DNA from: Acidimicrobiia bacterium
Lineage (GTDB): Bacteria > Actinomycetota > Acidimicrobiia > Acidimicrobiales > Bin134
NCBI GenBank assembly: GCA_022821445.1
Contig: JAJEDQ010000170.1
Span: 1-53,394 of the forward strand
Direction: 5' to 3'
DNA length: 53,394 nucleotides
Shown: positions 5,844-34,789 of the stretch, one piece after another
Layout: every line of letters begins with the position of its first letter
How positions within the stretch are numbered: position 1 is the first letter of the stretch
The notes under the pieces: generated by a model
What the model was told of the DNA's origin: nothing
The model's input: the letters and a program-made list of their open reading frames with translations, nothing else
Database searches by the model: none
Translations under genes and position numbers: made by a program

Positions 5844-6692
5844 TCAGACCACCAAATCGCGCAGCGCGGCGAGGCGGGGGGCGATCAGATCGGCGATGAC
5901 TGCGGGGCGGTCGGGGGGTGGGGCGAGGGCGGCTTCGCCCCATAGGGCTCGGCCGACGGTGAATCCGGCGCAGCCGGAGGCCATGGCGACTTCTAGTTGG
6001 GAGTGGTAGGTCTCGAAGGTGCCGCCGCCCGATAGCAGCGTCCAGGGCATGTCGCAGCGGGTGGAGATCTCCGAGCAGGCGGCGGCCCACCTGGCCCGGT
6101 CGGGGTCGTGGTGGGCATCGACGGGGAACGGGAGCTTCAGAACGTCGAATCCCATGGGGGCGAAGCGGTCCACGGTGTCGAGCACGATCTGGGGGCGAAC
6201 CGTTGGGTCGTCGAGGGCGTAAAACAGCGGCTCCACCAGCAGGGGGATGCCCACGCTCCGGCATTCGGACAGGATTTCGGCCGCGGCCTCCTCTTGGGCG
6301 ATGGCGTGGGGGCGGTCGGGGCGATACAACACGAGCAGCTTTGCCGCGGCCGCCCCGCTGTCGGCCGCGGCTTGCACCGACCAGCCCTCCAGCAGGGCGA
6401 CCGGCGAGGCTTCGGGGTCGGCCATGTACCCCTGGGCCTCTAGGGCGGCGGTGAAGCCCACACCGGGAGGCAGGGTGCCGTCGAGTAGCTGGGGGATGGA
6501 GTACTCCGGCTCCAGCATCACCCCGGTGGCTTGTTCGGCTAGGCCAGCCACTAGGTCGCGCTTGAGGTCGACGATGGCCTCGCTGGTTACCGAATCGGGA
6601 TCGTTTGGCGCGAGGACGGCCCGCAGCGAGTCGCGGTGGTCGATGGCCAGCACCGCGAACCGCCCGTTGCGGGCGAGGTCGGCCACTGTCAT
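5844..6692 (-). CDS. LacD/YihT-type class I aldolase, probable last step of the inositol pathway
   Basis: A 282-residue TIM-barrel protein. The N-terminal RFAVLAIDHRDSLRAVL resembles the start of tagatose-1,6-bisphosphate aldolase (LacD) and sulfofructose-1-phosphate aldolase (YihT). GFDVLKLPFPVD places the Schiff-base lysine at K186, and EPLFYAL is another conserved strand. It is the last gene of the inositol operon, 29 bases after iolB. No IolJ-type class II aldolase and no IolC-fused aldolase domain is present, so it probably cleaves 2-deoxy-5-keto-gluconate 6-phosphate to malonate semialdehyde and DHAP. Family is fairly certain; substrate is inferred from context. Confidence 0.75.
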   Translation of the reverse strand: MTVADLARNGRFAVLAIDHRDSLRAVLAPNDPDSVTSEAIVDLKRDLVAGLAEQATGVMLEPEYSIPQLLDGTLPPGVGFTAALEAQGYMADPEASPVALLEGWSVQAAADSGAAAAKLLVLYRPDRPHAIAQEEAAAEILSECRSVGIPLLVEPLFYALDDPTVRPQIVLDTVDRFAPMGFDVLKLPFPVDAHHDPDRARWAAACSEISTRCDMPWTLLSGGGTFETYHSQLEVAMASGCAGFTVGRALWGEAALAPPPDRPAVIADLIAPRLAALRDLVV

Positions 6693-6731
6693 ATCAGTTC
6701 TGGCATATCAGTTGAGGCATGTCAGTTGGAG
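6690..6731 (-). repeat. Three tandem 14-bp units across the iolB stop and aldolase start
   Basis: Three adjacent 14-base units (6690-6703, 6704-6717, 6718-6731) share the minus-strand core AACTGAYATG. The first contains the iolB stop codon, the last the aldolase ATG, and each supplies an ATG. Because 14 is not a multiple of three, only the last ATG is in the aldolase frame. The array looks like slippage duplication of a stop-start junction and has separated genes that would otherwise overlap. Confidence 0.7.
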
Positions 6732-7594
6732 GGCACTGCGCCGGCCACCGGGAGGGTCCATGCGCCGGCGCCCCAGTCGGCTTCGATCCAGGTGTGCTCG
6801 GCGGCGAAGCACGGGGGAGTGCGCCGCTCTTCGCCAATCAGCTCACCGGCCAGATAGTTCAGGAAGTACATGTTGGAGCTGGGGCAGGCCACCGACGTGT
6901 GGTAGCCCTTGGGCACGAGCACCGCATCGCCGTCGCGGGCCACCACTGCCTCGTCGAAGCCCTCCTCAGTTCGCCAGTTCCGGTGTATGCAGTAGCCCTC
7001 GGAGCGGTCCAGTCGGAAGTAGTACACCTCCTCCAGATAGGGGGAGCCATCCCGGCCGTCGTGGCAGTGAGGCGGCCACCCCGACCAGGTGCCCCGGGGG
7101 ACGAACACTTCGTAGAGAATGAGCTTTTCGGCGGGAAGCGGATGGGCCAGCGAGTGGACCACTTGGCGGTAGGCCTGGCCGCCGCCGCGGATCTCTACCT
7201 TCATTTCCGAAGGCTCGAAGACCCGGGCCGGGTAGCGGCCCTCAGCCGGGGCAGAGCCCACCGCGGCCGTCAGCGAGCCATCGGTTGAGATCTCATAAGG
7301 CGTACCCGGCGGCAGGTAGACGATTCGCCCCAGCTCCTCGAACACCGATGTGCGGCTGATGGGGGTGTCAATCTCCCCAGCTAGGACCCGGCCAGCACCA
7401 GAGAGGGGGATGATGGCGGTCTCCCGATCGGACTCGACTCCCGACCACGGATCAGAAGGGGTGGGCTCCACCACAGAGAAGGCCACGTTGTCCCAACCGG
7501 CTGTTTCCGGGGTGATGTTCAGGATTCGCCCTGGCCCCGGCTGGGGGCGGATGGGGCCTGATGCGGATGCGGTGGGGGTGTCGGCCATGGTCAT
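6722..7594 (-). CDS. iolB: 5-deoxy-glucuronate isomerase IolB
   Basis: A 290-residue bicupin of the KduI/IolB family that isomerises 5-deoxy-D-glucuronate to 5-dehydro-2-deoxy-D-gluconate. The C-terminal cupin holds the expected metal ligands: WSGWPPHCHDG (two His), YLEEVYYFRL (Glu) and VPKGYHTSVA (His). The start overlaps the end of the upstream SDR gene by four bases, so the two are translationally coupled. Length is normal. It acts between IolD and IolC. Confidence 0.92.
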   Translation of the reverse strand: MTMADTPTASASGPIRPQPGPGRILNITPETAGWDNVAFSVVEPTPSDPWSGVESDRETAIIPLSGAGRVLAGEIDTPISRTSVFEELGRIVYLPPGTPYEISTDGSLTAAVGSAPAEGRYPARVFEPSEMKVEIRGGGQAYRQVVHSLAHPLPAEKLILYEVFVPRGTWSGWPPHCHDGRDGSPYLEEVYYFRLDRSEGYCIHRNWRTEEGFDEAVVARDGDAVLVPKGYHTSVACPSSNMYFLNYLAGELIGEERRTPPCFAAEHTWIEADWGAGAWTLPVAGAVPSN

Positions 7595-8589
7595 CCTCCT
7601 GTTGCTGTGTCTGTTCCGGTGATCGCCGGCACCAGATCGCCGGCATCCATCTCTTGTTTGAATCGCTCCAGCAGCGCCCGAGTGCCCAACGGCTCATAGC
7701 CCAAGACCTCCCTGGTGCGAGGCGTGGCCAGGGAGCTGTCGTAAGGGATGCGGGCGCCGCCTAGCGATGCCATCATCCCTGGGTCAGGCGGTACCGACCG
7801 CAGCAACGACGGATCGTGGCCGAACACGTCGCAGGCCGTTCGGGCCAGCTCCATGCGACCCACTGGCTCGGCCCCGCAACAGTGGAAGATGCCTTCGGCG
7901 TCGGGGTTTGCGGCGATCAGCCACATGGCCTCGGCGCACTCGCTGGCCAGGCTCGAAGTAGCCGTCATGTTGATGTCGTCGCTCTCCCACACCCCGAAGG
8001 ACTCGCCCTGCGACACGGCGTTGAGCACTGTGGTCACGAAGTAGCCGAAGCCGGGGTCTTGGCCTCGGGGCATCTCGGACCGGGCCCAGTGGACACCGTT
8101 CACCGCCGACACCCGGGCCACCGCAGCCTGATCGGCCCGCAGCAGGGCGGCCTGCTCGCTGATGGCCTTGAGCACGCCGTAGTAGTTCACCGGGTTGGGG
8201 GGAGTGTGCTCATCTGCGCTGGCTTGGGTGCCGTCGAACACCCAGTCGGTAGACACCACAATCAGCTTGGCCCCGGACCGGTTGGCCGCCTCGGCCAGAG
8301 TGAGCGTGGCATCCACGTAGCTGCGCCAGGCCAGTTCCCGCTGGGCGTAAATGCCGTCGAGGTCGTTGAGGATCATGGAGTGGACGATCACGTCGGGATC
8401 GAAGCGGGCGACGCTGTCCTGCGCGGCCTCGGCGTCGAGCAGATCGAGCGGCTCGGTGGTGTAGCGCTGGGGACCGTCGGGGACGAAGGAGTGGACCGGG
8501 CAGTGGACTGTCGCGCCGTGGCGCTGGGTGAACACCTTGACGATGTTGGAGCCGATGAAGCCGGTGCCTCCGGTGACGTAGGCCCGCAT
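7591..8589 (-). CDS. Extended SDR, RmlD-like NAD(P)-dependent sugar oxidoreductase
   Basis: A 332-residue extended short-chain dehydrogenase/reductase. The Rossmann motif VTGGTGFIGSN is at residues 5-15, STDWVFDG is at about 113-120, and the catalytic Tyr-Lys is in NYYGVLKAISEQAAL. It resembles dTDP-4-dehydrorhamnose reductase, but no nucleotide-sugar gene is nearby. It sits between iolG and iolB, 70 bases after iolG, so a role on a cyclitol or a ring-opened sugar acid is more likely, for example epimerising or reducing a non-myo isomer. It is not part of the standard iol pathway. Confidence 0.7.
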   Translation of the reverse strand: MRAYVTGGTGFIGSNIVKVFTQRHGATVHCPVHSFVPDGPQRYTTEPLDLLDAEAAQDSVARFDPDVIVHSMILNDLDGIYAQRELAWRSYVDATLTLAEAANRSGAKLIVVSTDWVFDGTQASADEHTPPNPVNYYGVLKAISEQAALLRADQAAVARVSAVNGVHWARSEMPRGQDPGFGYFVTTVLNAVSQGESFGVWESDDINMTATSSLASECAEAMWLIAANPDAEGIFHCCGAEPVGRMELARTACDVFGHDPSLLRSVPPDPGMMASLGGARIPYDSSLATPRTREVLGYEPLGTRALLERFKQEMDAGDLVPAITGTDTATGG

Positions 8590-8659: not shown

Positions 8660-9667
8660 TCAGCCGATCTCGTCGATGCGCACGGGGCGGTGCTCGCGGA
8701 CTGACTTCCACGCGGCCAGGCCGATCACCAGCGGGGCCCGGCCATCGGCCAGGGTGACCGGCGACGGTGCGCCCTCCATCATCTCCACGAACGCGTCCCA
8801 CTCGGCCAGATACGAGGGGATATACCGCTCCAAGAAGAAGTAGGGCAGCGTCGGCGCTTGGGTGCCGCCGGCGGTTCGGGTTACCGCGGTTGCGGTCAGG
8901 GGGTTCTCCGAGGCGGCCATCCCTGCTGAGCCGAACGCCTCCACCCGCTGGTCGTAGCCGTAGACTGCCTGTCGGCTGTTGTCGATGGTGCTGATGGCGC
9001 CGTTCTCGTGGGTGCAGACGATGACCGCGGTGTCGAGGTCGCCGACCTTGCCGATGGCCTGGTCGATCAGCACGGCGCCGGTGGCGTACACCTCGACAAC
9101 CTCGCTTGCGGTGATGAACCGGATCATGTCGAAGTCGTGGATGGTCATGTCGCAGAAGATGCCGCCTGACTCGTCCAGGTACATCAGCGGCGGGGGCGCC
9201 GGATCGCGGCTGGAGATGCGAACGAGGTGGACGTCGCCCACCTCTCCGGCCTCCACTCGGTGGCGCACATAGCGGTGGCTGGGATCGAAGCGCCGGTTGA
9301 ATCCCACCTGCACGGGGATGCCGGCAGCCTCGGCGGCGGCGATGCCGCGGTCGACATCGGCCAAATCAAGGGCCAGCGGCTTCTCCACGAAGACGGCCTT
9401 GCCGGCCTCGGCCGCCGCCACCAGCAGGTCGATATGGGTGTGGGTGGAGGAGCAGATGGCCACCGCGTCCACGTCGGCGGCCCCCAGAATCTCGGACGGG
9501 TCCGCGGCCTGGCTCACCCCGAGTTCGCCGGCCAGGGCCGCCGAAGCATCGGCCACCACGTCGTAGACCGCCGTCACCACGGCGTTGGGCACCTGCTTGG
9601 CGATCAGCTCGGCGTGCATCCGCCCAATCCGCCCACAGCCCAACACTCCTATGCGCACCGGGCTCAT
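8660..9667 (-). CDS. iolG: Inositol 2-dehydrogenase (Gfo/Idh/MocA family)
   Basis: A 335-residue NAD-dependent dehydrogenase. GVLGCGRIGRMHAELI is the Rossmann loop (residues 8-23), VEKPLALDL carries the conserved catalytic lysine, and CDMTIHDFDMIRF carries the Asp/His pair of inositol dehydrogenases. It oxidises myo-inositol (or an isomer) to a keto-inositol, the substrate for IolE. The start overlaps the end of the oxygenase-Rieske gene by four bases, so the two are probably translated together. Confidence 0.88.
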   Translation of the reverse strand: MSPVRIGVLGCGRIGRMHAELIAKQVPNAVVTAVYDVVADASAALAGELGVSQAADPSEILGAADVDAVAICSSTHTHIDLLVAAAEAGKAVFVEKPLALDLADVDRGIAAAEAAGIPVQVGFNRRFDPSHRYVRHRVEAGEVGDVHLVRISSRDPAPPPLMYLDESGGIFCDMTIHDFDMIRFITASEVVEVYATGAVLIDQAIGKVGDLDTAVIVCTHENGAISTIDNSRQAVYGYDQRVEAFGSAGMAASENPLTATAVTRTAGGTQAPTLPYFFLERYIPSYLAEWDAFVEMMEGAPSPVTLADGRAPLVIGLAAWKSVREHRPVRIDEIG

Positions 9668-11094
9668 ACTCCGGACTCCTCGGATTCAGCTTTCAGGCTT
9701 GAGACCACACGGCCGTTCCGTATCTCCACGGGGTACAAGGTAAGGGGGTCGGTGGCCGGATACCGAACCGCTTCCCCGGTGCGGAGGTCGAAGCGGCCGT
9801 TGTGCTTGGGGCACTCCACCAGGCAGTCGAGCACCACGCCCTCGGCCAGGTAGGCCTGGCCGTGAGTACACAGCCCCTCGGTACACACCAATGTGCCGTC
9901 TCCCAGGCGGAACAGGGCGTAGGCCTCGTCGCCCAATTCAACTTGCCGGGCCGATTCGGGGGCGAGCGCGTTGGCCGGCCCGAGGTCGATCAGGCCGTCG
10001 TGGCGGTTGCCGGCCCACACGGTGTGCCCGGTGTTGACAAAAGAGCGACCGCCGTCGGAAGCCGCGGGCAGATCGCCGCGGGGCTCCTCGTAGGCCGAGT
10101 CGCGCCACTGGCGGCGCAGGGTGGACAGGATCTGCCGATAGGCCGACCAGGTGTTGGGCGACGCTGGGGCCAGGTAGCCCTTCACCTCTTGGTGCAAAGC
10201 GGGCAGGGAGTAGTAGGGCACGGTGGGGAATATGTGGTGTTCCACGTGGTAGTTCATATTGGAGTACAAGAACCGGAAGACGGGGTTCATATACACGGTG
10301 CGGGTGTTGAGGCGGTGGTCGAGCACGTCCTCTCGCAGTCCGGCGTGCTGGGTGATGGCGAAGAACGCCATCAGCCAGGCGCCATAGACGGTGGGCAGGC
10401 CGACGTAGAGCAACGGCACGATGGACCAGATGGCGATCGACCAGGCCGTCACGCCGGCCAGGATGGCGATATAGGCCCGAGACTCCCACTTCAGCTTGCC
10501 CAGATCGTCGGCAGGAATGAAGGAGCGGGCCTCGTCGTCAATGTGCCCGATGGCGTGCTTGGCGGCACGGGATACCAGCCGGGGCACGTTCACCAGGGGC
10601 AAGAAGACCAGTGCTGCTCCCGTGGGGGAGGGGGGGCGGGGGAAGATGATCTCGGCGTCGCGTCCCACCACGATGGTGTCGGTGTGGTGGCGGACGTGCG
10701 ACCAGCGCCACAGGGTGGGCTGGCGCAGCAGCATGAACGAAGCCAGGTAGTACACCGCATCGTTGAGCCATTTGGTTCTGAAGGCCGTGCCGTGGCCGCA
10801 CTCGTGCCAGCGGGAGTCGCCGGCGCCCCCGTAGAGCGCGCCGTAGGCGGCGAAGGCGGGGATGGCCCACCAAGTGCCCAGCGAGAGGAACGCCAGATAG
10901 CCGAACCCAGCCAAGAGCCCGAGCCATGCGATCGTGTCGATGGCGGCCCGGGCGTTTCCCCTGACTTGCAGCTCGCTCAGGCGCTCAGGATTGATGGGCG
11001 GGCGGAACCACTCGGCTTCCACCAGGCCAGCGGCGGCGGCCCGGTCAGCCTCGGGGCCGCCGACCCGGTAGTCGCGCGTGCTGGGTGTCACCAT
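9664..11094 (-). CDS. MocD-MocE-like fusion: membrane di-iron oxygenase with C-terminal Rieske domain
   Basis: A 476-residue two-domain protein. Residues 50-340 form a membrane fatty-acid-desaturase/hydroxylase fold with three histidine boxes, HECGH (97-101), HVRHH (133-137) and HVEHH (283-287), plus TQH near 250. Residues about 365-465 form a Rieske [2Fe-2S] domain with ligands C409-x-H411 and C428-x-x-H431. In rhizobia, MocD (oxygenase) and MocE (Rieske ferredoxin) are separate proteins, with MocF as reductase, proposed to demethylate the inositol derivative rhizopine. Here both electron donor and oxygenase are one chain inside an iol operon, overlapping iolD and iolG. A lipid desaturase is the alternative. 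No reductase gene is seen. Confidence 0.8.
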   Translation of the reverse strand: MVTPSTRDYRVGGPEADRAAAAGLVEAEWFRPPINPERLSELQVRGNARAAIDTIAWLGLLAGFGYLAFLSLGTWWAIPAFAAYGALYGGAGDSRWHECGHGTAFRTKWLNDAVYYLASFMLLRQPTLWRWSHVRHHTDTIVVGRDAEIIFPRPPSPTGAALVFLPLVNVPRLVSRAAKHAIGHIDDEARSFIPADDLGKLKWESRAYIAILAGVTAWSIAIWSIVPLLYVGLPTVYGAWLMAFFAITQHAGLREDVLDHRLNTRTVYMNPVFRFLYSNMNYHVEHHIFPTVPYYSLPALHQEVKGYLAPASPNTWSAYRQILSTLRRQWRDSAYEEPRGDLPAASDGGRSFVNTGHTVWAGNRHDGLIDLGPANALAPESARQVELGDEAYALFRLGDGTLVCTEGLCTHGQAYLAEGVVLDCLVECPKHNGRFDLRTGEAVRYPATDPLTLYPVEIRNGRVVSSLKAESEESGV

Positions 11095-12977
11095 CCCACA
11101 CGCTGGTCGGCTTTGCCGGTGTCCATGGCGGATCGGGCGGCTCGCACATCGGGGCTGGCGCTCACCTCGGGCACGCCCACCTCCCAGAACGACCCGCCCT
11201 CAGTCCAGCGGTAGGCGTGGGTGTTCAGCGCGATCACATAGGTGCGGTCAGCGGCCCGGGCCCGACCGAAGGCGGCCTCGAGCTCGGCGATGGAGGTCAC
11301 GGTCTCGGCCTCGCAGCCCATGGAGGCGGCATGGGCCGCGAAGTCCACTGCGCTCACCTGCTGCACCCGGGAGTCGGCGATGAGGTTGTTGAACGGAACG
11401 CCGCCCTGGGCGAGTTGCAGGCGGTTGATCACTGCATAGCCGCCGTTGTCGCACACGATCACAATGAGCTTGTGGCCGGAGAGCACAGTGCTGTACAGGT
11501 CGCTGTTCATCATGAGGTAGGAGCCGTCGCCCACCAGCACCACGACCTCCCGGTCGGGGAGGGCCATCTTGGCCCCCCATCCGCCGGAGATCTCGTAGCC
11601 CATGCAGGAATAGCCGTATTCGCAATCGAAGGAATGGACGGCCTGGCCCCGCCATCCGTTCACCAGCTCGCCGGGGAATCCGCCGGCCGCGGCCAGCACA
11701 TAGGTTGACTCGTCGGCGACCCGGTCCACCACTCCCACCACCTGGGCATAGGTGGGCAGATCGGCGTCGGCCTCGGTGTCGCCGCCGGAGTGTTTGCCCG
11801 ACGTCACCGTGTCGGGGGCGGCGATCTTGTCGATGTAGGCGTGGTATTGCGAGGTCTCCGAAGAGGCCTGGTCTGACCACTCCTCGGGGGCCCGGCAATC
11901 GCCCAGGGCCGCTCCCAGCTCGGTGAGGCCCTCGCGGGCGTCGGCCACCAGCGGCAGCGAGCGATGCTTGGTGGCGTCGAAGCGGGCCGCGTTCAGACCG
12001 ATGATCTGCACGTCGTCGCCCCCGCCGAACACCGTCCACGATCCGGTGACGAAGTCGCCCAGGCGGGTGCCCACCGCCAGCACCACGTCGGCCTCGGCAG
12101 CCATGGCGTTGGCCGAGGTACACCCTGTGACGCCGATGGGGCCGCAATTCAGCCGGTGGTCGGCCACCAGCGAGGTGCGCCCGGCCACCGTCTCCACCAC
12201 CGGGATGTTGTGGATCTCGGCGAAGGAACGCAGCTCGTCTTCGGCCAGCGACCAGTGGACCCCGCCGCCGGCCACGATCAAAGGCCGCTCAGCGGTAACC
12301 AGCGCGGCCGCGGCCCGGCGAAGCTCGCGGGTGTCGGGCCGGGGACGGCGGATCTCGTGGATGGCCTCCTCGAAGAAACGGGCGGGGAAGTCGTAGGCCT
12401 CGCCCTGGATGTCTTGGGGCAGGCTGATGAAGGCCGGACCGCAGTCGCCGGGGTCGAGCATGGTGTTGACGGCGTTGGGCAGCGACTGGACCAGCTGCTC
12501 GGGCGCGGTGATGCGATCCCAGTAGCGGACCACCGGCCGGAAGGCGTCGTTTACCGTCACAGTCGGATTGTCGAAGTGCTCCACCTGCTGGAGCACGGGG
12601 TCGGGGATGCGGCTGTTGAAAGTGTCGCCGGCCAGCAGAAGCAGGGGCATCCGGTTGGCCATGGCCACCGCAGCCGCAGTCACCATGTTGGTGGCGCCGG
12701 GGCCGATGGAGCTGGTTGCGGCCATGATGCGGCGGCGGCGGTTGGCCTTGGCGTAGGCCACCGCGGCCAGGGCCATGCCCTGCTCGTTCTGACCCCGCCA
12801 GGTGGGCAGCGCCTCGCCGGCCTGCTCCAGCTCATGGCCCAGGCAGGTGACGTTGCCGTGGCCGAAGATGGCGAACACGCCCGCGAACAGGGGGACGGCC
12901 TGGCCGTCGACCTCGATGCGCTGGGCCGCCAGATAGCGCACCACGGCCCCGGAGGTTGTCAGGCGGATGGTTTCCAT
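11088..12977 (-). CDS. iolD: 3D-(3,5/4)-trihydroxycyclohexane-1,2-dione hydrolase IolD
   Basis: A 629-residue thiamine diphosphate enzyme that opens the cyclitol ring to give 5-deoxy-glucuronate. The N-terminal domain includes RGQNEQGMALAAVAYAK with the glutamate that activates ThDP. The C-terminal domain has the diphosphate-binding motif VGDGSYLMMNSDL. SSIGPGATNMVTAAAVA is a typical IolD block. It lies 13 bases after the upstream dehydrogenase and overlaps the oxygenase start by seven bases. Length and motifs are normal for IolD. Confidence 0.95.
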   Translation of the reverse strand: METIRLTTSGAVVRYLAAQRIEVDGQAVPLFAGVFAIFGHGNVTCLGHELEQAGEALPTWRGQNEQGMALAAVAYAKANRRRRIMAATSSIGPGATNMVTAAAVAMANRMPLLLLAGDTFNSRIPDPVLQQVEHFDNPTVTVNDAFRPVVRYWDRITAPEQLVQSLPNAVNTMLDPGDCGPAFISLPQDIQGEAYDFPARFFEEAIHEIRRPRPDTRELRRAAAALVTAERPLIVAGGGVHWSLAEDELRSFAEIHNIPVVETVAGRTSLVADHRLNCGPIGVTGCTSANAMAAEADVVLAVGTRLGDFVTGSWTVFGGGDDVQIIGLNAARFDATKHRSLPLVADAREGLTELGAALGDCRAPEEWSDQASSETSQYHAYIDKIAAPDTVTSGKHSGGDTEADADLPTYAQVVGVVDRVADESTYVLAAAGGFPGELVNGWRGQAVHSFDCEYGYSCMGYEISGGWGAKMALPDREVVVLVGDGSYLMMNSDLYSTVLSGHKLIVIVCDNGGYAVINRLQLAQGGVPFNNLIADSRVQQVSAVDFAAHAASMGCEAETVTSIAELEAAFGRARAADRTYVIALNTHAYRWTEGGSFWEVGVPEVSASPDVRAARSAMDTGKADQRVGW

Positions 12978-12990
12978 GGCTGCCCTCCTT

Positions 12991-14166
12991 TCAATCGGTC
13001 CTCAGCGATACCACATCTTCCCAGGCGCCGGTCTCCCAGCTCTTCAACATGGCCGCTTGCACGCTCACGCAGGCCAGCGCCTGCTCCATGCCCGCACTGT
13101 GGGGCCGCCCCTCGGCCACCGAGGCGAGGAACTCGTGGTCTTGGATGGCCACCATGTCCTCGAAACCGATGGAGTTGGCGTCGCCTGGCACGAAGGCGCC
13201 GTGGAAGGGGTGGCGGTCGCTGGCCCTTACGGTGGTGTAGCCCTGCTGGGGGTCGGACGCCCGGAAAAGATGAAGCTCGTTCAAAGTCTCGTGGTTCCAG
13301 CTCAAAGCCCCCTCGGTGCCGTAGACGTCGAAGGCCATTTGGCTTTGGGGGCCGATGATGGCCCGGCTGGCCTCCAACATCCCGTGGCTGCCGTTGGCGA
13401 AGACGGCCAGCGCACCGAAGTAGTCCTCGTTGGTGACCTCGCCGGAGGGGTCGCCGGGGTTGCCCCGGTCGTAGTGGGTCCCCGCCCCCGACGGCAGCGG
13501 GCGCTCCTTGATGAAGGTCTCGCCGATGCCCACCACCCGGGTGATGGGGCCGTTCAGCATCAGGGCCAGATCTACCGCATGGCTCAAGATGTCGGTGGTG
13601 GCGCCGTGCCCGGCTTGGTCGATGAGAAAGCGCCAGGAGAGCAGGCCCATGGGATCGGCCCCGTACATCGAGAAGAACCGGCCCCGATAGTTGGTGATCT
13701 GCCCCAGTTCGCCGGCGGCGATGAGCTCTTGGGCATAGAGCACCAGCGGGGCGAAACGGTAGTTGTAGCCCACCCCGGTAACGATCCCGGCCCGGCGGCA
13801 GGCTTGCTCGATCCGGGCGGTCTGGCCCGGGGTTCCCCCCACCGGCTTCTCGCAGAACACGTTCTTTCCGGCGGTGGCCGCAGCAATGGCCAAGGGCTCG
13901 TGCAGCATGTTGGGAGCGCAGATGATCACCGCATCGACGTCGGGGTGCTCGACGGCGGGCCGCCAGTCGTCGGTGGTCTCCCGGAATCCGAAGTCGCTCT
14001 CGGCAATATCTAGTCGGGCTTCCATGTTGTCGGAGCAGATCACCAGGTCAACGTCGTAGGGCCGGTCTTCGAACAGCGTGGGCAGCCGCAGGTAGGAGCG
14101 GGAGTGGGCTTGCCCCATCCAGCCGAATCCCACCACGGCAATGCCAAGGCGTCGCCGAGAGGTCAT
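12991..14166 (-). CDS. Second Gfo/Idh/MocA family dehydrogenase
   Basis: A 391-residue protein with Rossmann motif VVGFGWMGQAHSRSYL (residues 11-26) and the catalytic FCEKPVGG. It is longer than IolG and only distantly similar, with a C-terminal half containing GHGATTDILSHAVDLALML. Its start overlaps the upstream 2-hydroxyacid dehydrogenase by four bases. In an operon that already has an iolG-like gene, a second member usually handles another isomer (scyllo, chiro) or a derivative; MocA of the rhizopine pathway belongs to the same superfamily. The exact substrate cannot be read from sequence. Confidence 0.8.
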   Translation of the reverse strand: MTSRRRLGIAVVGFGWMGQAHSRSYLRLPTLFEDRPYDVDLVICSDNMEARLDIAESDFGFRETTDDWRPAVEHPDVDAVIICAPNMLHEPLAIAAATAGKNVFCEKPVGGTPGQTARIEQACRRAGIVTGVGYNYRFAPLVLYAQELIAAGELGQITNYRGRFFSMYGADPMGLLSWRFLIDQAGHGATTDILSHAVDLALMLNGPITRVVGIGETFIKERPLPSGAGTHYDRGNPGDPSGEVTNEDYFGALAVFANGSHGMLEASRAIIGPQSQMAFDVYGTEGALSWNHETLNELHLFRASDPQQGYTTVRASDRHPFHGAFVPGDANSIGFEDMVAIQDHEFLASVAEGRPHSAGMEQALACVSVQAAMLKSWETGAWEDVVSLRTD

Positions 14167-15143
14167 GAGGCGCGGGGGGTGTCGGCATGGGCGATTCTGC
14201 GGTCCACCGCGGGGTGGGCGGCCGCGGGGTCGAGCAAGTGCTCAGGAGTTCCGCCCCGCAGCCAAATGAGGGCCTGTTCCAGCGCCTGCCCCACGAGGCG
14301 GACAATGCCCACCGTGGTGGTTGAAGCCACATGGGGGGTGACGAACACGTTGTCGCGGCCCAGTAGCGGGTGGTTGCAGGGCAGCGGCTCGGGTTCGGTC
14401 ACATCGAGGCCTGCCCCGGCTACGTGGCCGGAGTCGAGGGCGGCCAGCAGGGCCTCTTGGTCTACCAACGCCCCCCGGGCGCAGTTGATGATGACAACGC
14501 CGGGGCGCATGGCAGCCAGGGAGTCGGTGTTGACGATGTGGCGGGTCTCCGCGGTGGCGGGGGCGTGCAGCGACACCACGTCTGACTCGGCCCAGAGCTG
14601 GTCGAGGTCGACCAGCCTGCCCATTGGCGCGGCATCCAAATACGGGTCGTAAACCAGCACGGTCATTCCCATCGCCTCGGCATAGTGCCCAAGAAGGCTG
14701 CCGATCCGCCCGCAACCCACCAGCCCCAAGCTTCGTCCGTCCAGCTCCAGAGCGCCGGGGCCGGCGAGCCTTCCCGGCCCGCCCGCGGTACCCGCAGCCA
14801 AGCGCGCCTCGGAGCCCTTGAGGCGCTTGGTCACCGCCAGTATCAGGGCCAGCGCGTGCTCGGCGGTGGAGACAGTGGGGGCGTCGGGGGTGTTGCAGGC
14901 CGCCACGCCGTGAGCGGCGCAGGCAGCAACGTCCACGTTGTCGTAGCCGATGCCCGAGCGGGCCACAACTTTGAGCAGGGGCAGCCGCTGACAGGCATCG
15001 TCGTCCCAGGGCCGATCGGCGGCCACCACCACGCCGTCGGCCTGCTCGGGGCCGTCAACCAGCTCCACGTCAGAGGGGATCTCGACCCCGGGCGGGGGTG
15101 TCCGGTCGATCCATATGCGGATTTTGGTGTTGGATCCGGTCAT
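14163..15143 (-). CDS. D-isomer-specific 2-hydroxyacid dehydrogenase family protein
   Basis: A 326-residue NAD-dependent enzyme. The nucleotide-binding motif is LVGCGRIGSLLGHYAEAMG, the catalytic arginine is in NCARGALVDQEALL, and the catalytic histidine is in VTPHVASTTT. The family reduces 2-keto acids or oxidises D-2-hydroxyacids (phosphoglycerate dehydrogenase and CtBP-like). It lies between iolC and the second MocA-like dehydrogenase. It is not a standard iol enzyme and may interconvert an acid formed from the ring-opened product or from a side substrate. Confidence 0.82.
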   Translation of the reverse strand: MTGSNTKIRIWIDRTPPPGVEIPSDVELVDGPEQADGVVVAADRPWDDDACQRLPLLKVVARSGIGYDNVDVAACAAHGVAACNTPDAPTVSTAEHALALILAVTKRLKGSEARLAAGTAGGPGRLAGPGALELDGRSLGLVGCGRIGSLLGHYAEAMGMTVLVYDPYLDAAPMGRLVDLDQLWAESDVVSLHAPATAETRHIVNTDSLAAMRPGVVIINCARGALVDQEALLAALDSGHVAGAGLDVTEPEPLPCNHPLLGRDNVFVTPHVASTTTVGIVRLVGQALEQALIWLRGGTPEHLLDPAAAHPAVDRRIAHADTPRAS

Positions 15144-15162: not shown

Positions 15163-16143
15163 TCACTGGTGTGGGGCCAGCATCTCGTCGATCTCGGAAG
15201 GGGTCGGCATGGCGTGTGAACATGCCAGGCGACCGGCCACAATAGCTCCGGCTGCGTTGGCCCGGGTGACGATTGCCACCGGGTCGAGGTCGGCCAAGAG
15301 TCCGTCGGCCAACGAGCCCCCGAAAGCGTCCCCGGCGCCCAATCCGCACACCACCTCCACCGGTATGGGCGGCACCTCCGCCCTGCTCTCCGGGGTGGCC
15401 ACCAACACCCCGGCTTCCCCCTGCTTCACTATGGCCAGCGACACGCCCCGGTCCAGCAGCCGGTCGGCGGCGGCATGGGGGTCGGCGGTGCCCACGGCGA
15501 TCTCGCACTCAGTTCGGTTGCCCACCGCCACAGTGGCCAGCTCCACGGCCTGCCCGATGTGCTCGCCGGCCTCCTGGGAGGAAGACCAGAAGCTGGGCCG
15601 GTAGTCCAAGTCGAGCACAGTATGGGGTCGGCGGTTCCGGCGCTGGAGCACTTCCATCACGGTGGAGCGGGACGGCTCCTGGGCGAACCGGGACCCTGCC
15701 GTCCACAGCACCGGTACCGTGGCGGCGATGTCGGGGATGTCGTCGGGTACCAAGTTCATCTCCGGGCCCCGGGGCTCGCGGTAGAACAGCAGCGGCGGGT
15801 CGGTCGGAGGGTCGAGGGCGCAGAAGGCCAGGGCGGTGCGCAGTTCGGGGTCGGTGGACACATAGCGGCTCTCCACGCCGAACACCTCGGCCAGCTCGTT
15901 CCGGATGTACTCCCCGAAGCCGTCATCGCCCACCCGGGTCACCACCGCAGCCCGCCGGCCCAGCCGGGCACAGGCCACGGCCACGTTGGTGGGGGAGCCG
16001 CCGACTGACTTGGCAAACGACTCCACCCTGCTCAGCGGCACCCCGCTTTGCTGGGGATACAGATCGACGCTGACCCGCCCGATGGCGAGCACCTCGATAT
16101 CGGACGAATCGCGGGCGATGTCGGTCCCCGGTGTGTCAGTCAC
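15163..16143 (-). CDS. iolC: 5-dehydro-2-deoxygluconokinase IolC (PfkB family)
   Basis: A 326-residue ribokinase-family sugar kinase. The substrate-binding N-terminal part has SVGGSPTNVAVACARLGRRA, and the ATP/anion-hole motif CGLGAGDAFGGSLADGL carries the catalytic aspartate near residue 280. It lacks the C-terminal aldolase-like domain found on IolC of many proteobacteria, which fits with a separate aldolase at the operon end. It lies 32 bases after the ABC ATPase and 19 before the next gene. It phosphorylates the IolB product. Confidence 0.88.
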   Translation of the reverse strand: MTDTPGTDIARDSSDIEVLAIGRVSVDLYPQQSGVPLSRVESFAKSVGGSPTNVAVACARLGRRAAVVTRVGDDGFGEYIRNELAEVFGVESRYVSTDPELRTALAFCALDPPTDPPLLFYREPRGPEMNLVPDDIPDIAATVPVLWTAGSRFAQEPSRSTVMEVLQRRNRRPHTVLDLDYRPSFWSSSQEAGEHIGQAVELATVAVGNRTECEIAVGTADPHAAADRLLDRGVSLAIVKQGEAGVLVATPESRAEVPPIPVEVVCGLGAGDAFGGSLADGLLADLDPVAIVTRANAAGAIVAGRLACSHAMPTPSEIDEMLAPHQ

Positions 16144-16175: not shown

Positions 16176-16955
16176 CTACGTATCAGATCCAGCCAACTCG
16201 TGCTGGAGAGCTTCAAGTTCGGCGCCGCCGGCCATGAGCTGGGTCAGATCAGCCTGGGACAGCTCTTCTTTGGCCCAATTCCCCATGGACACTCCCCGGT
16301 TGAGGATCACAAAGCGGTCTCCCACGGGGTAGGCATGGTTGGGATTGTGGGTAATGAAGATCACCGCCAATCCCTGGTCTCGGGCCTCCACGATGCGCCG
16401 CAGCACTACTCCTGACTGCTTCACGCCCAGCGCCGAGGTGGGCTCGTCGAGGATCAGCACCCGAGCGCCGAAGTAGCTGGCCCGGGCGATGGCCACCGAT
16501 TGCCGCTCACCGCCGGAGAGTGTGCCAACGGGCTGCTCGACATCGCGGATGTCGATGCCCATCTTGGCCATCTCCTCTTTGGCGATTCGCTTTGCGCCCT
16601 CGATGTCGATCTGGCGGAAGGGCCAAATGCCGGTCTTGGGCTCCGACCCGAGGAAGAAGTTCCGCCACACCGACATGAGCGGCACCATGGCCAAGTCCTG
16701 GTACACGGTGGCGATGCCCCGGCCCAGCGCCTCGCGGGGCGAGTTGAATCGCACCTCCTCGCCCTCCATCAACAGCGTGCCCTCGTCGTACTGGTGTACG
16801 CCGGCCAGGATCTTGATGAAGGTGGACTTGCCCGCGCCGTTGTCGCCGAGCACGCAGGTGACCTCACCGGGATTCACCGTGGTGGTGACCCCGGTGAGGG
16901 CGATGATGTTCCCGTAGAACTTCGAGATGTTGTTGAGTTCGAGGAATTCAGCCAT
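16176..16955 (-). CDS. Sugar ABC transporter ATP-binding protein (single domain)
   Basis: A 259-residue ATPase with Walker [10 protein letters not shown] (residues about 37-45), signature [15 protein letters not shown], and Walker [12 protein letters not shown]. Ribose- and inositol-type importers usually use a double-length ATPase near 500 residues; this one has a single nucleotide-binding domain (FrcA-like), so the working transporter would need a homodimer. It is encoded with one permease and one lipoprotein and powers uptake of the operon's substrate, by context a cyclitol. Confidence 0.88.
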
Positions 16956-19385: not shown

Positions 19386-20426
19386 TTAGCGGGTTCCCTG
19401 GGACACCAGTGCCTTGACCTCCGCCGCGTTGGCGGTGTCGACGAAGCCCGGACCGGTGAGGATGGGCAGGCCGCCGCCCGCGGTGTTCAGGTTGGTGGCT
19501 TGCAGGTGCATCAGGATGACCGGCAGGTAGCCCTGGAGGTACTGCTGCTGGTCGACGGTGAAGGCCACGTTGCCCGCCTCGATCTCATCGATGAGGTCGC
19601 TCGACAGGTCGAAGCCGCCGATGATGAGGTCCCTACCGGCTTGCTCACCGGCAGCAAGAGCCCGCAGAGGCAGGTTCGGACCCACGCCGAGCACGCCGTC
19701 GATGCTCTCATCGCCCTGGAGGATGGCGGCAATGGTGTTCTGCTGCTCATCGGGGGTGGCGTCGAGGCCGACGAACTCCGAGGTCACCTGACCGCTGAAG
19801 GTTTCGGCCAGACCGTTGCAGCGCTCTTCGAGAGCCACGTTGGTCTGCTCCTGGCGGGCGCAGAGCACGTGGGTGGCGCCCAGTGCATTGAACCGCTCGC
19901 CCGCGCCGTTACCGGCCACCGTCTCGGTTTGGCCGATGTGGGTGGTGGCGCCGAGGTCCTTGTAGTTGTTCACACCGGAGTTCAGCGTGTACAGCGGGAT
20001 GCCCGCGGCGACCACGGCCTCAGCAGCCGACTGGACACCGGCCGGGTCGGCCAGCGAGATGGCGATGCCGTCGGAGCCGGCGGCGATGGCCGCCTCAATC
20101 TCCTGGGCTTGCCTCAGAGCGTCGTTGTTGGAGCCGAAGTAGACCACGTCGCAGCCGATTGCTGCCGCGGCGTCGCGCACGGCCACCTCAACCACTGACC
20201 AGAAGGTTCCGGAGTCACCGTGGGTGATCACGTGGTAGGTCTTGTCGCAGCCCTGGGTTGGGTCTACTTCCACGACCTCGGTCGGCTCTGGTGCTTCAGT
20301 GGCAGGTGCCGCTGCTTCGGTTGGCTCACTGGATGCGGGCTCGCCGGTGTCGTCGTCGTTGCCGCATGCTGCGACTACGAGAGTGAACGCCAGAAGCAGT
20401 GCAAACAGCTTCCATATCTTTCTCAT
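19386..20426 (-). CDS. Sugar-binding lipoprotein of the cyclitol ABC importer
   Basis: A 346-residue periplasmic-binding-protein-1 family protein. The signal peptide ends in a lipobox (VVAAC) at residues 17-21, followed by an acidic linker rich in D, E, S and P to about residue 52. The mature domain has the two-lobe pattern of ribose/inositol-binding proteins (GSNNDALRQAQEIEAAIAAG, then VLGVGPNLPLRAL). It is anchored to the outer face of the membrane. It starts 15 bases after the IolE/MocC-like gene and is followed by a stem-loop that probably raises its expression. Confidence 0.9.
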   Translation of the reverse strand: MRKIWKLFALLLAFTLVVAACGNDDDTGEPASSEPTEAAAPATEAPEPTEVVEVDPTQGCDKTYHVITHGDSGTFWSVVEVAVRDAAAAIGCDVVYFGSNNDALRQAQEIEAAIAAGSDGIAISLADPAGVQSAAEAVVAAGIPLYTLNSGVNNYKDLGATTHIGQTETVAGNGAGERFNALGATHVLCARQEQTNVALEERCNGLAETFSGQVTSEFVGLDATPDEQQNTIAAILQGDESIDGVLGVGPNLPLRALAAGEQAGRDLIIGGFDLSSDLIDEIEAGNVAFTVDQQQYLQGYLPVILMHLQATNLNTAGGGLPILTGPGFVDTANAAEVKALVSQGTR

Positions 20427-20441
20427 TTTGGATTACCCCTC

Positions 20442-21368
20442 TCAAGGTAGGTTTTGTTGTTTGTGTGAGGCTCCGGCACCCGCGAGAACGGGTTCCAGAC
20501 TTCGCAGGAAATCGATGCTCTGGCAGGCGTCGAACCTTAGCCGAGCTATGGCGGAAGGATCTCCTTCCGCTATCGCTGCATCCTGCTCCAGGACGTACCA
20601 GAGGTCGCGCCCTGATTTTTCCAGTAGGTCGACGATCTCGGCAATCGGCAACCCTCCCTGGCCCAAGGGCGGGAAAAGGCCCTGCTGAACACCCTGCATG
20701 AGCGACAGCTCTCCCGCCGTGACCTGGGCTGCGATGCCCAGGTTCACGTCTTTGATGTGTACGAGCGCGACGCGATCCAGGTAGCGCTTGGCCGTCTCGG
20801 CCACGTCACCACCCCCGAGGAGGAGATGAGCGGTATCGAGAACCAGAGCGGTGTCACTGGCGCGCAGCACCTGCTCAATCTCCGTATTCGTCTCCACCAG
20901 CGACCCGAAATGGGGGTGGAAGGCTTGAATGAGGCCGTGCTCAGCTGCGATCCGTTCGACCTCGGCGAGGGTGTCCGCCACCGCGGGCCATTCGTGCTCA
21001 GCGGGCGGCGCCTGACGCCATTGGTCGGGATGGCTGACTGCGCAGGAGACGAAAAAGCGGCCGCCGCCGCTGGAAATGAGTTCCGCCGCCTCGATTGCTG
21101 CTTCTCGGGTGCTCTGGGTCTGCGAGGGGTCGTGCAGTACCAAGGGGACGAAGCCGCCTAGCAGCGACAGATCGTGCTGGCTGAGGATAGCCCTGAGCTG
21201 AGCAGGCTCAGGGGGCAGATAGCCGAGCGATCCCAGTTCGGTATGGGTGAACCCGGTGGCGGACATCTCTTTGAGCACAGCGTCAACGGGAAGCTGGTAT
21301 CCCCATCCCGGCATCTCGCAGACACCCCAACTGATGGGCGCGGTGGCAATTCGCTCTAGCAGTGTCAT
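20442..21368 (-). CDS. iolE: Inosose dehydratase-like TIM barrel (IolE/MocC family)
   Basis: A 308-residue sugar phosphate isomerase/epimerase-fold protein. The N-terminal TAPISWGVCEMPGWGYQLP is the hallmark of inosose dehydratase-like proteins and of MocC. Metal ligands are probably in FHPHFGSLVET, LVLDTAHLLLGG, VHIKDVNLG and YVLEQDAAI. It would dehydrate 2-keto-myo-inositol to the dione used by IolD. It begins the inositol operon if the candidate promoter at 21413-21440 is used. MocC rather than IolE function is possible given the MocD/MocE-like fusion downstream. Confidence 0.75.
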   Translation of the reverse strand: MTLLERIATAPISWGVCEMPGWGYQLPVDAVLKEMSATGFTHTELGSLGYLPPEPAQLRAILSQHDLSLLGGFVPLVLHDPSQTQSTREAAIEAAELISSGGGRFFVSCAVSHPDQWRQAPPAEHEWPAVADTLAEVERIAAEHGLIQAFHPHFGSLVETNTEIEQVLRASDTALVLDTAHLLLGGGDVAETAKRYLDRVALVHIKDVNLGIAAQVTAGELSLMQGVQQGLFPPLGQGGLPIAEIVDLLEKSGRDLWYVLEQDAAIAEGDPSAIARLRFDACQSIDFLRSLEPVLAGAGASHKQQNLP

Positions 21369-21412: not shown

Positions 21413-21440
21413 GTCTTATGGCTGATTGCTAGGGGGTCAA
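21413..21440 (-). promoter_or_regulatory. Candidate promoter of the inositol operon
   Basis: On the minus strand TTGACC (21440-21435) and TAAGAC (21418-21413) are separated by 16 bases and lie about 45 bases before the IolE/MocC-like start. The -35 element overlaps the stop of the HAD gene. The match to a sigma70-type promoter is good for a high-GC genome but is pattern-based only. No regulator gene is encoded in the inositol operon. Confidence 0.4.
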
Positions 21441-22084
21441 GCCGTAAATTCGGCCAATATTCGGTCGAGTTCGGCCAGAGCGGGGACGATGTCGTCTCCC
21501 ACCAGTACACCGTGCATGCCGAGCTCTCGGGCCGCGGCCACGTTGGGCTCGAAATCGTCCAAAAAAGCGCTCGTTTCCGGTTGAGAAATCTCCAATTGCT
21601 GAAGGGCCAGTCGGTAGATCCTCGGATCGGGCTTGCGCATGCCCACCGCGCTGGAGTCGATCACCGCCTCGAACAACTCGTCCACCGGGATGAGGCTGCG
21701 CCACATATCGCCGAATTCCTTGGCGTTGTTGGTGATGATGGCCTGCCTGATGCCGGCCTCGTTCAACTCCCGCACTTTGGCCACCGCCATCTCGCGCCGC
21801 TCGTCGCTGCTGGTGCTGCTCATGGCCTTGAAAAAGCCCTCAGAGCTGAACCCCTCGATTCCGTCAGCCCGGCAGGCCTCATCCGCCGCCTCCAGCGCCT
21901 CAGCCAGGGTGCCCTCGCCCCGCTCCAGCCGGTGCCAGGGATGGTCGCCGTTGGCCTCGTAACGTCCGAACACATGCTCCAAGAGCCGCTCGTTGGTGGT
22001 GCCCAGCGAACGGGCATAGTCGTCGAGGTGAAACGGCGACCCGGTGAACACCCCGCCGAAATCCCAGAACACTGCTTCGATCAT
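21437..22084 (-). CDS. HAD family phosphatase (HAD-IA type)
   Basis: A 215-residue haloacid dehalogenase-superfamily hydrolase. Motif I is FWDFGGVFTG, motif II TNNAKEFG, the conserved lysine is in GMRKPDPRIY, and motif IV is FLDDFEPNVAAARELGM. The helical cap lies between residues 15 and 95. The second position of motif I is glycine, as in many HAD proteins annotated DFGGV. It lies 19 bases after ligA and 68 before the IolE-like gene. Substrate unknown; it could serve either neighbourhood. Confidence 0.85.
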   Translation of the reverse strand: MIEAVFWDFGGVFTGSPFHLDDYARSLGTTNERLLEHVFGRYEANGDHPWHRLERGEGTLAEALEAADEACRADGIEGFSSEGFFKAMSSTSSDERREMAVAKVRELNEAGIRQAIITNNAKEFGDMWRSLIPVDELFEAVIDSSAVGMRKPDPRIYRLALQQLEISQPETSAFLDDFEPNVAAARELGMHGVLVGDDIVPALAELDRILAEFTA

Positions 22085-22103: not shown

Positions 22104-24335
<2,232 letters not shown>

Positions 24336-29780: not shown

Positions 29781-30548
29781 GTGCGACTGGGAGCGATGAG
29801 TTGGACGACTCTGGGCGAGCGGTTCGAACAAGGCCCGCTGGATGTGATGATCCCGCTGGGCGCCTTGGAGCAGCACGGTCCTCATCTACCCCTGGATACC
29901 GACGCCCTCATCGCTGAGGCAGTGGCCGACCGGGCGGCCCTTCAAGCGGGGGAGTGCGTGGTGGTGCCCTGCCTTCCCGTTGGTGCTTCCCATCACCATC
30001 TGGCATTTCCCGGAACGGCCAGCCTGAACGACACCACTCTTCAGGCGGTGCTTGCGGAGGTGATCCGAACCCTGCTGAGCCACGGTTTCCGGAGCGCCTA
30101 CCTGGTTACTGGCCATGCCGGAAATGTGGGGGCAATGGCCGCAGCAATGGCCGAGTTGGAACCCACCGAGCAGAGCCGAGTGGTCTCGTTCGACGACTGG
30201 CCCGCCCAACGGGATGCCGTCCATCGGGTAGCCGAGGATCAGCTCAGTTTGGATCGAGAGCTGGTTGGAACCCATGGAGGGCATTTCGAGACCAGCATCA
30301 TGCTGGCCATCGCCCCCGATCGGGTGGACATGGCGTCGGCAGTCGCCGGTCATGTGGGGCCGGCCGCGCCGGCCAGTGCCAAGCTGCGCTCTGAGGGCAT
30401 GGCCGCTCTTTCGCCGGTCGGCGTCATCGGCGACCCCCGGGGATCCACGGCCGACGCCGGCGAGCTCTATCTCGACGCGTTGGTCAGCCTGGTAGTCGAG
30501 GGCATCACTGCCCACCGCAGCCGATCAAACGATCGGGTGGCCCCATGA
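29781..30548 (+). CDS. Creatininase family amidohydrolase-like protein
   Basis: A 255-residue protein starting GTG; an ATG 15 bases later is also possible. The metal-binding residues are seen in PLGALEQHGPHLPLDTDALI (Glu, His, Asp), VTGHAGNVGAM and THGGHFETSIMLAI (His, Glu). The family includes creatinine amidohydrolase, MftE and enzymes acting on lactams or sugar derivatives. Nothing nearby suggests creatine metabolism, so hydrolysis of a lactam or lactone of the operon's substrate is a guess. The stop overlaps the permease start by four bases. Confidence 0.8.
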   Translation: MRLGAMSWTTLGERFEQGPLDVMIPLGALEQHGPHLPLDTDALIAEAVADRAALQAGECVVVPCLPVGASHHHLAFPGTASLNDTTLQAVLAEVIRTLLSHGFRSAYLVTGHAGNVGAMAAAMAELEPTEQSRVVSFDDWPAQRDAVHRVAEDQLSLDRELVGTHGGHFETSIMLAIAPDRVDMASAVAGHVGPAAPASAKLRSEGMAALSPVGVIGDPRGSTADAGELYLDALVSLVVEGITAHRSRSNDRVAP

Positions 30549-31690: not shown

Positions 31691-31709
31691 GCACCCGGAG
31701 GGGAACACA

Positions 31710-32705: not shown

Positions 32706-32738
32706 GGGTACTCACCTTCCGGTAACCCACTAGCGAAC

Positions 32739-34349: not shown

Positions 34350-34789
34350 CGACGCCTACATCGCCCGCCCCGACGGCCGATATCGACATCGGCCGATTGA
34401 CCGCTCTCGCCGACGTGATGCTGCCCGCCGCCCACGGGATGCCCGCAGTCTCTGACGTGAAGGCAGTGGAGTCTTACCTGCCCCAAGTCTTGGGCTGGCG
34501 CAAGGATCTACACCAGCCTCTGGTCCGGGCGGTGGATGCGCTTGATCCGTCTTTATTCACCATCGATCGGCTGCCGGCGCTCCACGAGGAGGACGAAGAC
34601 GCCTACGTCGCCCTTACCACCGCAGTGGCGGCGTGCTATTACCTCAGCCCGGTGGTGCGCGAGCTGATCGGTTATCCGGGCCAAGTGGCCAAAACCTACG
34701 ATCCCTTCTCCTACACCGAGTGGGTGGCCGAAGGTCTGCTCGATCCGGTTGTCGACCGAGGCCCGATCTGGCGGGAGACCCCAGGATGA
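34346..34789 (+). CDS. Small partner of the GMC oxidoreductase (gluconate 2-dehydrogenase subunit 3-like)
   Basis: A 147-residue helical protein with RLTALADVMLPAAHGMPAVS near the start, and GYPGQVAKTYDPFSYTEWV followed by a short tail at the end. This resembles the subunit 3 family that accompanies GMC dehydrogenases and often assists their maturation or export; no Tat signal is visible here. It overlaps both neighbours as ATGA. Function is inferred mainly from its position. Confidence 0.6.
   Translation: MTTPTSPAPTADIDIGRLTALADVMLPAAHGMPAVSDVKAVESYLPQVLGWRKDLHQPLVRAVDALDPSLFTIDRLPALHEEDEDAYVALTTAVAACYYLSPVVRELIGYPGQVAKTYDPFSYTEWVAEGLLDPVVDRGPIWRETPG

Follow-up and report, generated by a model that had tools for sequence, protein, structure and literature searches.

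The rhizobial proteins MocD, MocE and MocF have been proposed to serve as a demethylase of rhizopine. The genes named for rhizopine use comprise mocCABRDEF together with iolD and iolA, a list that holds no aminotransferase, and the inositol genes are reported to be necessary for this use (PMC5789663); the title of a work cited on rhizopine genes mentions a ferredoxin oxygenase complex. Oxidative demethylation is established for 6-O-methyl-D-galactose, which is attacked by a set of a cytochrome P450, a ferredoxin and a reductase (PMC10033563). Here we describe a gene in a 53,394-nucleotide stretch of DNA from an Acidimicrobiia bacterium (contig JAJEDQ010000170.1 of assembly GCA_022821445.1), referred to below as the window, in which a MocD-like membrane di-iron oxygenase and a MocE-like Rieske ferredoxin are encoded as a single chain within a set of inositol (iol) genes. 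The fusion protein is probably an oxidative O-demethylase that frees inositols from O-methyl-inositols.

A preliminary description of the window had reported a 476-residue chain with three histidine boxes and a complete Rieske site, in a gene overlapping both iolD and iolG, and translation and Pfam searches bear this out (Table 1). The gene lies on the minus strand, which the description had not given, and shares 7 bases with iolD and 4 with iolG; the plus strand of the same interval gives no such protein when translated. The oxygenase part scores 122 bits against the FA_desaturase model, for which the gathering score is 29.7. Across 44 aligned fused homologues, selected by us from those available (32 two-domain and 12 longer proteins), nine histidines of the oxygenase part are invariant in every sequence (H97, H101, H133, H136, H137, H250, H283, H286 and H287), as are the four Rieske ligands. 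The iron pair of AlkB is held by nine histidines and one glutamate, with Glu271-His272 among the ligands (PMC10113152). By comparison the di-iron site of the fusion looks complete, with Q249-H250 as a candidate counterpart of Glu271-His272. Relatives are encoded by at least 591 of 593 pattern-matched stretches in a search of genome contigs, and the ratio of nonsynonymous to synonymous substitution rates (dN/dS) of the fusion gene is 0.166, 0.124, 0.170 and 0.183 against the close relatives at loci L001, L002, L003 and L004, respectively. The gene is conserved and under purifying selection, and a chance or mis-read open reading frame can be ruled out from this together with the domain scores. 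At the thresholds used there is one copy of the fusion in the genome, the three other matches being weak and confined to the Rieske part.

The predicted structure of the protein has a mean predicted local distance difference test score (pLDDT) of 86.4 and a predicted template modelling score (pTM) of 0.83. Its Rieske domain superimposes on the carbazole dioxygenase ferredoxin with a TMt of 0.89 in Foldseek. The 50 Foldseek matches listed of 335 (E values up to 10) are Rieske proteins or domains, bar two long, weak matches to the chloroplast motor complex subunits 8xks_K and 8xqw_M (TMq 0.45 and 0.46; root-mean-square deviation 8.5 and 11.3), and no solved di-iron enzyme matching the predicted membrane fold is among these 50. 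The domain order is not that of the Rieske mononuclear-iron oxygenases (e.g., guaiacol or dicamba demethylases), as the Rieske domain stands at the C-terminal end, after an FA_desaturase-like domain. The resemblance to MocD and MocE that the preliminary description had proposed holds, the best NCBIfam match of the Rieske part being MocE_fam_FeS (TIGR02377), though at 83 bits under a cut-off of 136.

The inositol genes of the window are co-directional on the minus strand, from 21368 down to 5844, in the order IolE-like protein, binding protein, permease, ATPase, IolC, hydroxyacid dehydrogenase, second Gfo/Idh/MocA protein, IolD, fusion, IolG, RmlD-like protein, IolB and aldolase. IolC, IolD, IolG and IolB all exceed curated cut-offs, and the IolE model does not. 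Thus the gene does lie in an inositol operon, as had been described, whose extent had been drawn too small since the IolE-like gene belongs to it too. The association recurs across genomes. Among 148 genomes of the class, a homologue (E values up to 1e-40) was found in 6 and iolD in 18, with both in 4 of those 6; of the 397 genomes in the order, a homologue is present in 60 (a count that includes a few MocD-only matches), iolD in 78, both in 44 and neither in 303 (Fisher P 6e-24). Counted per genus, iolD is present in 15 of 22 genera with a homologue versus 19 of 181 without (P 8e-9), these statistics ignoring kinship deeper than genus. In 33 of the 44 genomes with both, the two genes are on one contig and the same strand within 4.6 kb, with iolD upstream in all 33. 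The gap is under 70 bases in 16 cases, 161 bases in one, 821-1048 bases in 15 and 4553 bases in one; a gap of 821-1048 bases leaves space for a single gene, a short-chain dehydrogenase in loci L005-L008. Because its co-occurrence with iolD is partial, the homologue is an accessory to inositol catabolism rather than a fixed part of it.

Homologue loci were compared in a tree of 86 MocD domains, of which 36 come from two-domain proteins, 24 from longer proteins and 26 from separate genes. Since the sample consists of the best 80 of at least 591 relatives from the pattern search, plus loci from other searches, frequencies in it are not population values. Gene calls in the loci came from our own script, which called no homologue in five of the 80 (L017, L051, L057, L065 and L073), and the tree excludes L038, L079 and the short duplicate loci L081-L084 and L088-L092. 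The preliminary description had proposed tabulating iol neighbours for the same architecture; in the tree rows, iol genes are near in 23 of the 36 two-domain proteins, in none of the 24 longer ones and in 1 of the 26 separate genes. Thirty-four two-domain proteins, actinobacterial or near kin of the window, form one clade (support 100/99), which belongs to the same family as rhizobial MocD as a separate clade; the tree contains no MocD from a strain tested for rhizopine use, and in none of five genomes tried as a source of authentic MocD did the rhizopine binding-protein model exceed its cut-off, the best reaching 367 of 420 bits. Just outside the two-domain clade are three Acidimicrobiia-type rows with separate genes (L033, L060 and L098), and L042 of Chloroflexota, also two-domain, is placed apart. 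The longer proteins, of 689-827 residues, form another clade (100/99) that includes one two-domain protein, L049, and are found in Verrucomicrobiota, Bacteroidota, Acidobacteriota and Kiritimatiellota. All four longer homologues checked with Pfam (L037, L064, L067 and L076) carry an oxygenase, a Rieske domain and an FNR-type NAD-binding reductase; the other rows among the 24 called three-domain were assigned by length and an alignment of 23. Such one-chain proteins are apparently self-contained membrane oxygenases, judged from their domains; a structure model of the longer form reached a pTM of only 0.50 and was not used. A fusion unique to actinobacterial iol operons is ruled out by the tree and by the longer form in other phyla. 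In the separate systems, the MocF checked has another reductase fold, Pyr_redox_2, which indicates that reductases were recruited more than once. Locus L097, from another family of the same class, carries MocD, MocE and MocF as separate genes. After them come iolB, iolE and iolC, a gene without a label, a further Gfo/Idh/MocA gene, iolD and a gene for a short-chain dehydrogenase, as labelled from their resemblance to proteins of the window and the clusters; the L097 MocD falls among rhizobial MocD proteins (100/97). This is a second, independent recruitment to inositol genes, so that MocD systems joined them at least twice, once fused and once separate.

Three side observations concern odd copies and neighbours. 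Second homologues at G496:C15:37101-38204 and G447:C10:1632-2663 cover mainly the oxygenase part, each with one TGA inside the match. At L079:9517-10854, from Candidatus Poriferisocius aerobius, an open frame begins as a HAD hydrolase and continues into the latter half of the fusion, with no iol genes seen nearby; it is either a deletion remnant or an assembly fault. Small proteins beside longer homologues (L063:9099-9959, L036:7521-8381 and L069:10781-11710) have no Pfam match at 1e-5 and, as an impression from their sequences, look like unnamed relatives of TIM-barrel sugar isomerases.

In the proposed mechanism, the neighbouring ATP-binding cassette (ABC) transporter would import the methyl ether, and the fusion, as a membrane-bound di-iron monooxygenase with a built-in Rieske ferredoxin, would act on it. 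A separate NAD(P)H-ferredoxin reductase, encoded elsewhere, would reduce the Rieske cluster, which in turn would reduce the di-iron site for activation of O2. Hydroxylation of the O-methyl group of the O-methylated inositol would give a hemiacetal that collapses to formaldehyde and free inositol; the freed ring would be degraded by IolG, IolE, IolD, IolB, IolC and the aldolase, and the formaldehyde would be oxidised elsewhere, plausibly by the mycothiol-dependent formaldehyde dehydrogenase of the genome. While the architecture, the ligand sets, the iol genes, their recurrence and the association are observed, we infer the O-demethylation, substrate class, import and electron route. The O-demethylation reading is strengthened by gene context: the association with iolD, the separate MocD, MocE and MocF genes beside iol genes in L097, and the P450 set and corrinoid-type genes next to the longer homologue in L067. 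The electron route is supported by the four longer homologues in which oxygenase, Rieske domain and FNR-type reductase form one chain. Within the genome, the MocF-like protein is a weak candidate for the reductase of the fusion. The formaldehyde dehydrogenase model has one match over its cut-off (660 bits versus 513) among 11 matches; in 14 control genomes it matches in 13 and exceeds the cut-off in one, and iolD matches in three. Such genes serve other uses too, and the gene lends the demethylation reading weak support. Possible substrates include pinitol, ononitol and sequoyitol. The operons of L018, L019, L021 and L030 have an additional IolG-type protein; that of L030, the sole one checked, scores best with the myo/D-chiro-inositol dehydrogenase model (190 bits, under a cut-off of 540), a match that would suit pinitol, a D-chiro-inositol ether.

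Three other readings of the enzyme can be weighed against O-demethylation of methyl-inositols. It could instead hydroxylate a cyclitol, at the ring or at a C-methyl group, and remove no O-methyl group; the iol context is the same for this reaction, as are its chemical steps as far as hydroxylation. Marine invertebrates and algae are known to contain C-methyl-inositols. One relative belongs to the genus Candidatus Poriferisocius, whose name suggests a sponge host, where legume methyl ethers are less obvious, and on this account marine methyl-inositols or C-methyl-inositols deserve weight too. However, the products would not obviously enter the route through IolG and IolD, and gene contexts across the wider family are more in keeping with methylated sugars and polyols, leaving ring or C-methyl hydroxylation unlikely. 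Alternatively, the enzyme could remove the methyl group of rhizopine-like O-methyl-inosamines, the reaction proposed for MocDEF of rhizobia. Its likeness to MocD and MocE agrees with this, as does the binding protein, whose best NCBIfam match is the rhizopine substrate-binding protein; this match, however, reaches 195 bits against a cut-off of 420 and is about equalled by PDB chain 4ru1 (191 bits), and no cluster of the mocR, mocBA or mocC type was recognised around the fusion. The preliminary description had held the missing aminotransferase against rhizopine; this is a weak argument, the rhizopine-use genes named in PMC5789663 including none. Rhizopine-like substrates are quite unlikely. A desaturase or hydroxylase of fatty-acyl chains or other lipids that is in the operon by chance would explain the FA_desaturase match and the two-domain relatives outside iol operons that adjoin MFS, CoA-transferase or luciferase-like genes, but is made very unlikely by the place next to iolD, conserved in several genera, by the separate MocDEF set in the iol operon of L097 and by the sugar contexts found elsewhere.

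Several points weigh against the reading as a methyl-inositol demethylase. In 13 of the 36 two-domain tree rows no iol genes are in reach, some of these rows being at contig ends, and some two-domain Acidimicrobiia homologues outside iol operons adjoin genes unrelated to sugars. Among the order genomes, 16 of the 60 with a homologue have no iolD, 34 of the 78 with iolD have no homologue, and in 11 of the 44 with both the two matches are not on one contig. The MocE, IolE and rhizopine binding-protein models all matched below their cut-offs. No MocF-type reductase gene was labelled among the window's inositol genes or in loci L001-L030 (own-script gene calls), and the sole MocF-like protein found in the genome (E 1e-10 or better) adjoins a small ferredoxin gene. 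The demethylation of rhizopine by rhizobial MocDEF is itself a proposal. Published expression data, on the other hand, fit the methyl-inositol reading. In Rhizobium mesoamericanum, root exudate of Mimosa pudica induces genes 59.7-79.3% identical to mocDEF, along with a mocB homologue and inositol genes, which the authors suggest reflects rhizopine use (PMC5789663). Pinitol is the most concentrated compound measured in that exudate (145 uM; PMC5789663), and the induction is at least as consistent with pinitol as with rhizopine; since exudate is a mixture, it does not decide between the two.

Table 1 Coordinates of the fusion gene, its domains and ligands, the inositol genes of the window and the longer homologues checked
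Feature	Position	Strand	Basis
Fusion gene, membrane di-iron oxygenase (MocD-like) and Rieske ferredoxin (MocE-like)	9664..11094	minus	476 aa, ATG start
FA_desaturase-type domain, residues 74-316	10147..10875	minus	Pfam PF00487, E 4.5e-35
His box 1, HECGH 97-101	10792..10806	minus	H97, H101 invariant in 44/44
His box 2, HVRHH 133-137	10684..10698	minus	H133, H136, H137 invariant in 44/44
Q249-H250, candidate extra iron ligand	10345..10350	minus	invariant in 44/44
His box 3, HVEHH 283-287	10234..10248	minus	H283, H286, H287 invariant in 44/44
Rieske [2Fe-2S] domain, residues 372-455	9730..9981	minus	Pfam PF00355, E 2.9e-15
Rieske ligands C409, H411 (CTH 409-411)	9862..9870	minus	invariant in 44/44
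Rieske ligands C428, H431 (CPKH 428-431)	9802..9813	minus	invariant in 44/44
IolE-like inosose dehydratase, first of inositol genes	20442..21368	minus	TIGR04379 155 bits, below cut-off 290; AP_endonuc_2
Sugar/cyclitol ABC substrate-binding protein	19386..20426	minus	NF052284 rhizopine substrate-binding protein 195 bits, below cut-off 420; best PDB chain 4ru1, 191 bits
ABC permease, 742 aa	17008..19236	minus	BPD_transp_2
ABC ATPase	16176..16955	minus	ABC_tran
IolC, 5-dehydro-2-deoxygluconokinase	15163..16143	minus	TIGR04382 342 bits, cut-off 300
D-2-hydroxyacid dehydrogenase, no role assigned	14163..15143	minus	profile matches
Second Gfo/Idh/MocA oxidoreductase	12991..14166	minus	best NCBIfam levoglucosan dehydrogenase 270 bits, below cut-off 650
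IolD	11088..12977	minus	TIGR04377 840 bits, cut-off 715
IolG, inositol 2-dehydrogenase	8660..9667	minus	TIGR04380 412 bits, cut-off 355
RmlD-like NAD-dependent epimerase/reductase, no role assigned	7591..8589	minus	profile matches
IolB	6722..7594	minus	TIGR04378 206 bits, one bit over cut-off 205
LacD/DeoC-type aldolase	5844..6692	minus	DeoC 3.7e-17; PRK12858 172 bits, below cut-off 184
One-chain oxygenase-Rieske-FNR reductase proteins	L037:9974-12235, L064:9956-12247, L067:9752-12235, L076:5381-7621		Pfam

The remaining genes of the window set can be read from Table 1. The aldolase probably acts on the IolC product. Close upstream of the IolE-like gene, on the same strand, are genes for a HAD hydrolase (21437-22084) and a DNA ligase (22104-24329); transcription may therefore begin upstream of the inositol genes. 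The permease of the inositol set is long, at 742 residues versus 381 for the window's other sugar-type permease, and its relatives are long too (cluster median 706). A second gene set on the plus strand (29781-40380) holds a creatininase-like protein, a sugar-type ABC permease and binding protein, a GMC oxidoreductase, a zinc alcohol dehydrogenase, an aldehyde dehydrogenase and a molybdenum hydroxylase large subunit, and is perhaps another polyol or aldehyde route.

Homologues outside iol operons were surveyed through their neighbours, counting on each side no more than four same-strand genes, each of 100 residues or longer and separated by fewer than 250 bases; MocD, MocE and MocF homologues were excluded, and the count omits L029, L039, L096, L098 and the second L035 copy. 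The 114 neighbours fall into 121 Pfam families, and the statements that follow refer to the 25 commonest of these. AP_endonuc_2 (14) leads, aldose epimerase and Gfo/Idh/MocA come next with 9 each, and behind them are transporters (MFS and sugar), PanB-like proteins and glycoside hydrolases; most of the 25 are sugar-related. The preliminary description had named consistent lipid or carotenoid contexts as the finding that would speak against it; no lipid or carotenoid biosynthesis family is among the 25, and some single neighbours are unrelated to sugars. In the case of Labilibacter sediminis (L067), the longer protein is preceded by a cytochrome P450, a 2Fe-2S ferredoxin and a ferredoxin reductase, and further upstream by a B12-binding protein, a URO-D family protein, CobW, a Met_synt_B12 protein and a RACo-type protein. 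From its gene content this one locus (L067:45-12235) is a possible demethylation island with three demethylation-type systems side by side. A PanB-like gene (ketopantoate hydroxymethyltransferase family) is present in nine MocD loci (L018, L019, L030, L053, L066, L077, L086, L087 and L093), in L053 on the opposite strand from the MocD homologue. The protein is divergent, at 80 bits to the best PDB PanB, and might take up the one-carbon unit that is released. A trimethylamine-methyltransferase family (MTTB) gene at L031:13260-14732 lies about 1.9 kb downstream of a two-domain homologue, with one gene between.

It is an even bet that MocD represents a large, multi-phylum family of oxidative O-demethylases of methylated polyols and sugars, in which the electron chain was fused at least two times and rhizopine demethylation is one corner. 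The two fusions would be the oxygenase-Rieske form of Acidimicrobiia iol operons and the one-chain oxygenase-Rieske-FNR form, which would run on NAD(P)H and O2 alone. Plants, algae and their polysaccharides commonly contain methylated inositols and sugars, and there are few established routes for removing the methyl ether. If true, one oxygenase family would cover many such removals, and the 'fatty acid desaturases' annotated among sugar genes in many bacteria would be explained and corrected. The rhizopine model would also become directly testable with a two-domain or one-chain protein, not a three-protein membrane system.

Set beside the described systems, the closest in kind is MocDEF. Like it, the window protein is a three-His-box membrane di-iron oxygenase with a MocE-type Rieske partner, and plasmid oxygenases, many with separate MocD- and MocE-type genes, are 42-51% identical to it (40 of 477 records listed); the window differs in having oxygenase and Rieske ferredoxin in one chain, no adjoining MocF and a place inside an iol set. 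The literature searched, which covers few subscription papers, yielded no description of an oxygenase-Rieske fusion or of the three-domain form, and neither 'desaturase' nor 'Rieske' occurs in the main texts of a large inositol survey and a paper on UBA5794 actinobacteria. The preliminary description, which had singled out the fusion in an actinobacterial iol operon as apparently undescribed, was too narrow, as fusions also occur outside such operons; the three-domain form appears to be unreported. The longer homologues (L037, L064, L067, L076 and others) have oxygenase and Rieske domain fused in the same order, but the four checked add an FNR-type reductase part, and their neighbours are sugar and polysaccharide genes rather than iol genes. 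AlkBG of Fontimonas thermophila is likewise a membrane di-iron oxygenase (AlkB) naturally fused to its electron donor, which is a rubredoxin, not a Rieske protein, and its substrate is an alkane (PMC10113152). The P450 set carries out oxidative O-demethylation of a carbohydrate with release of formaldehyde (PMC10033563), but uses a heme enzyme of unrelated fold, and it may differ from the P450 set beside the longer homologue in L067. The classical iol operon is matched by IolG, IolD, IolB and IolC of the window, to which the window adds the oxygenase, the hydroxyacid dehydrogenase, the second Gfo/Idh/MocA protein and the RmlD-like protein. The oxygenase-Rieske fusion thus appears to extend a known kind, that of MocD and MocE.

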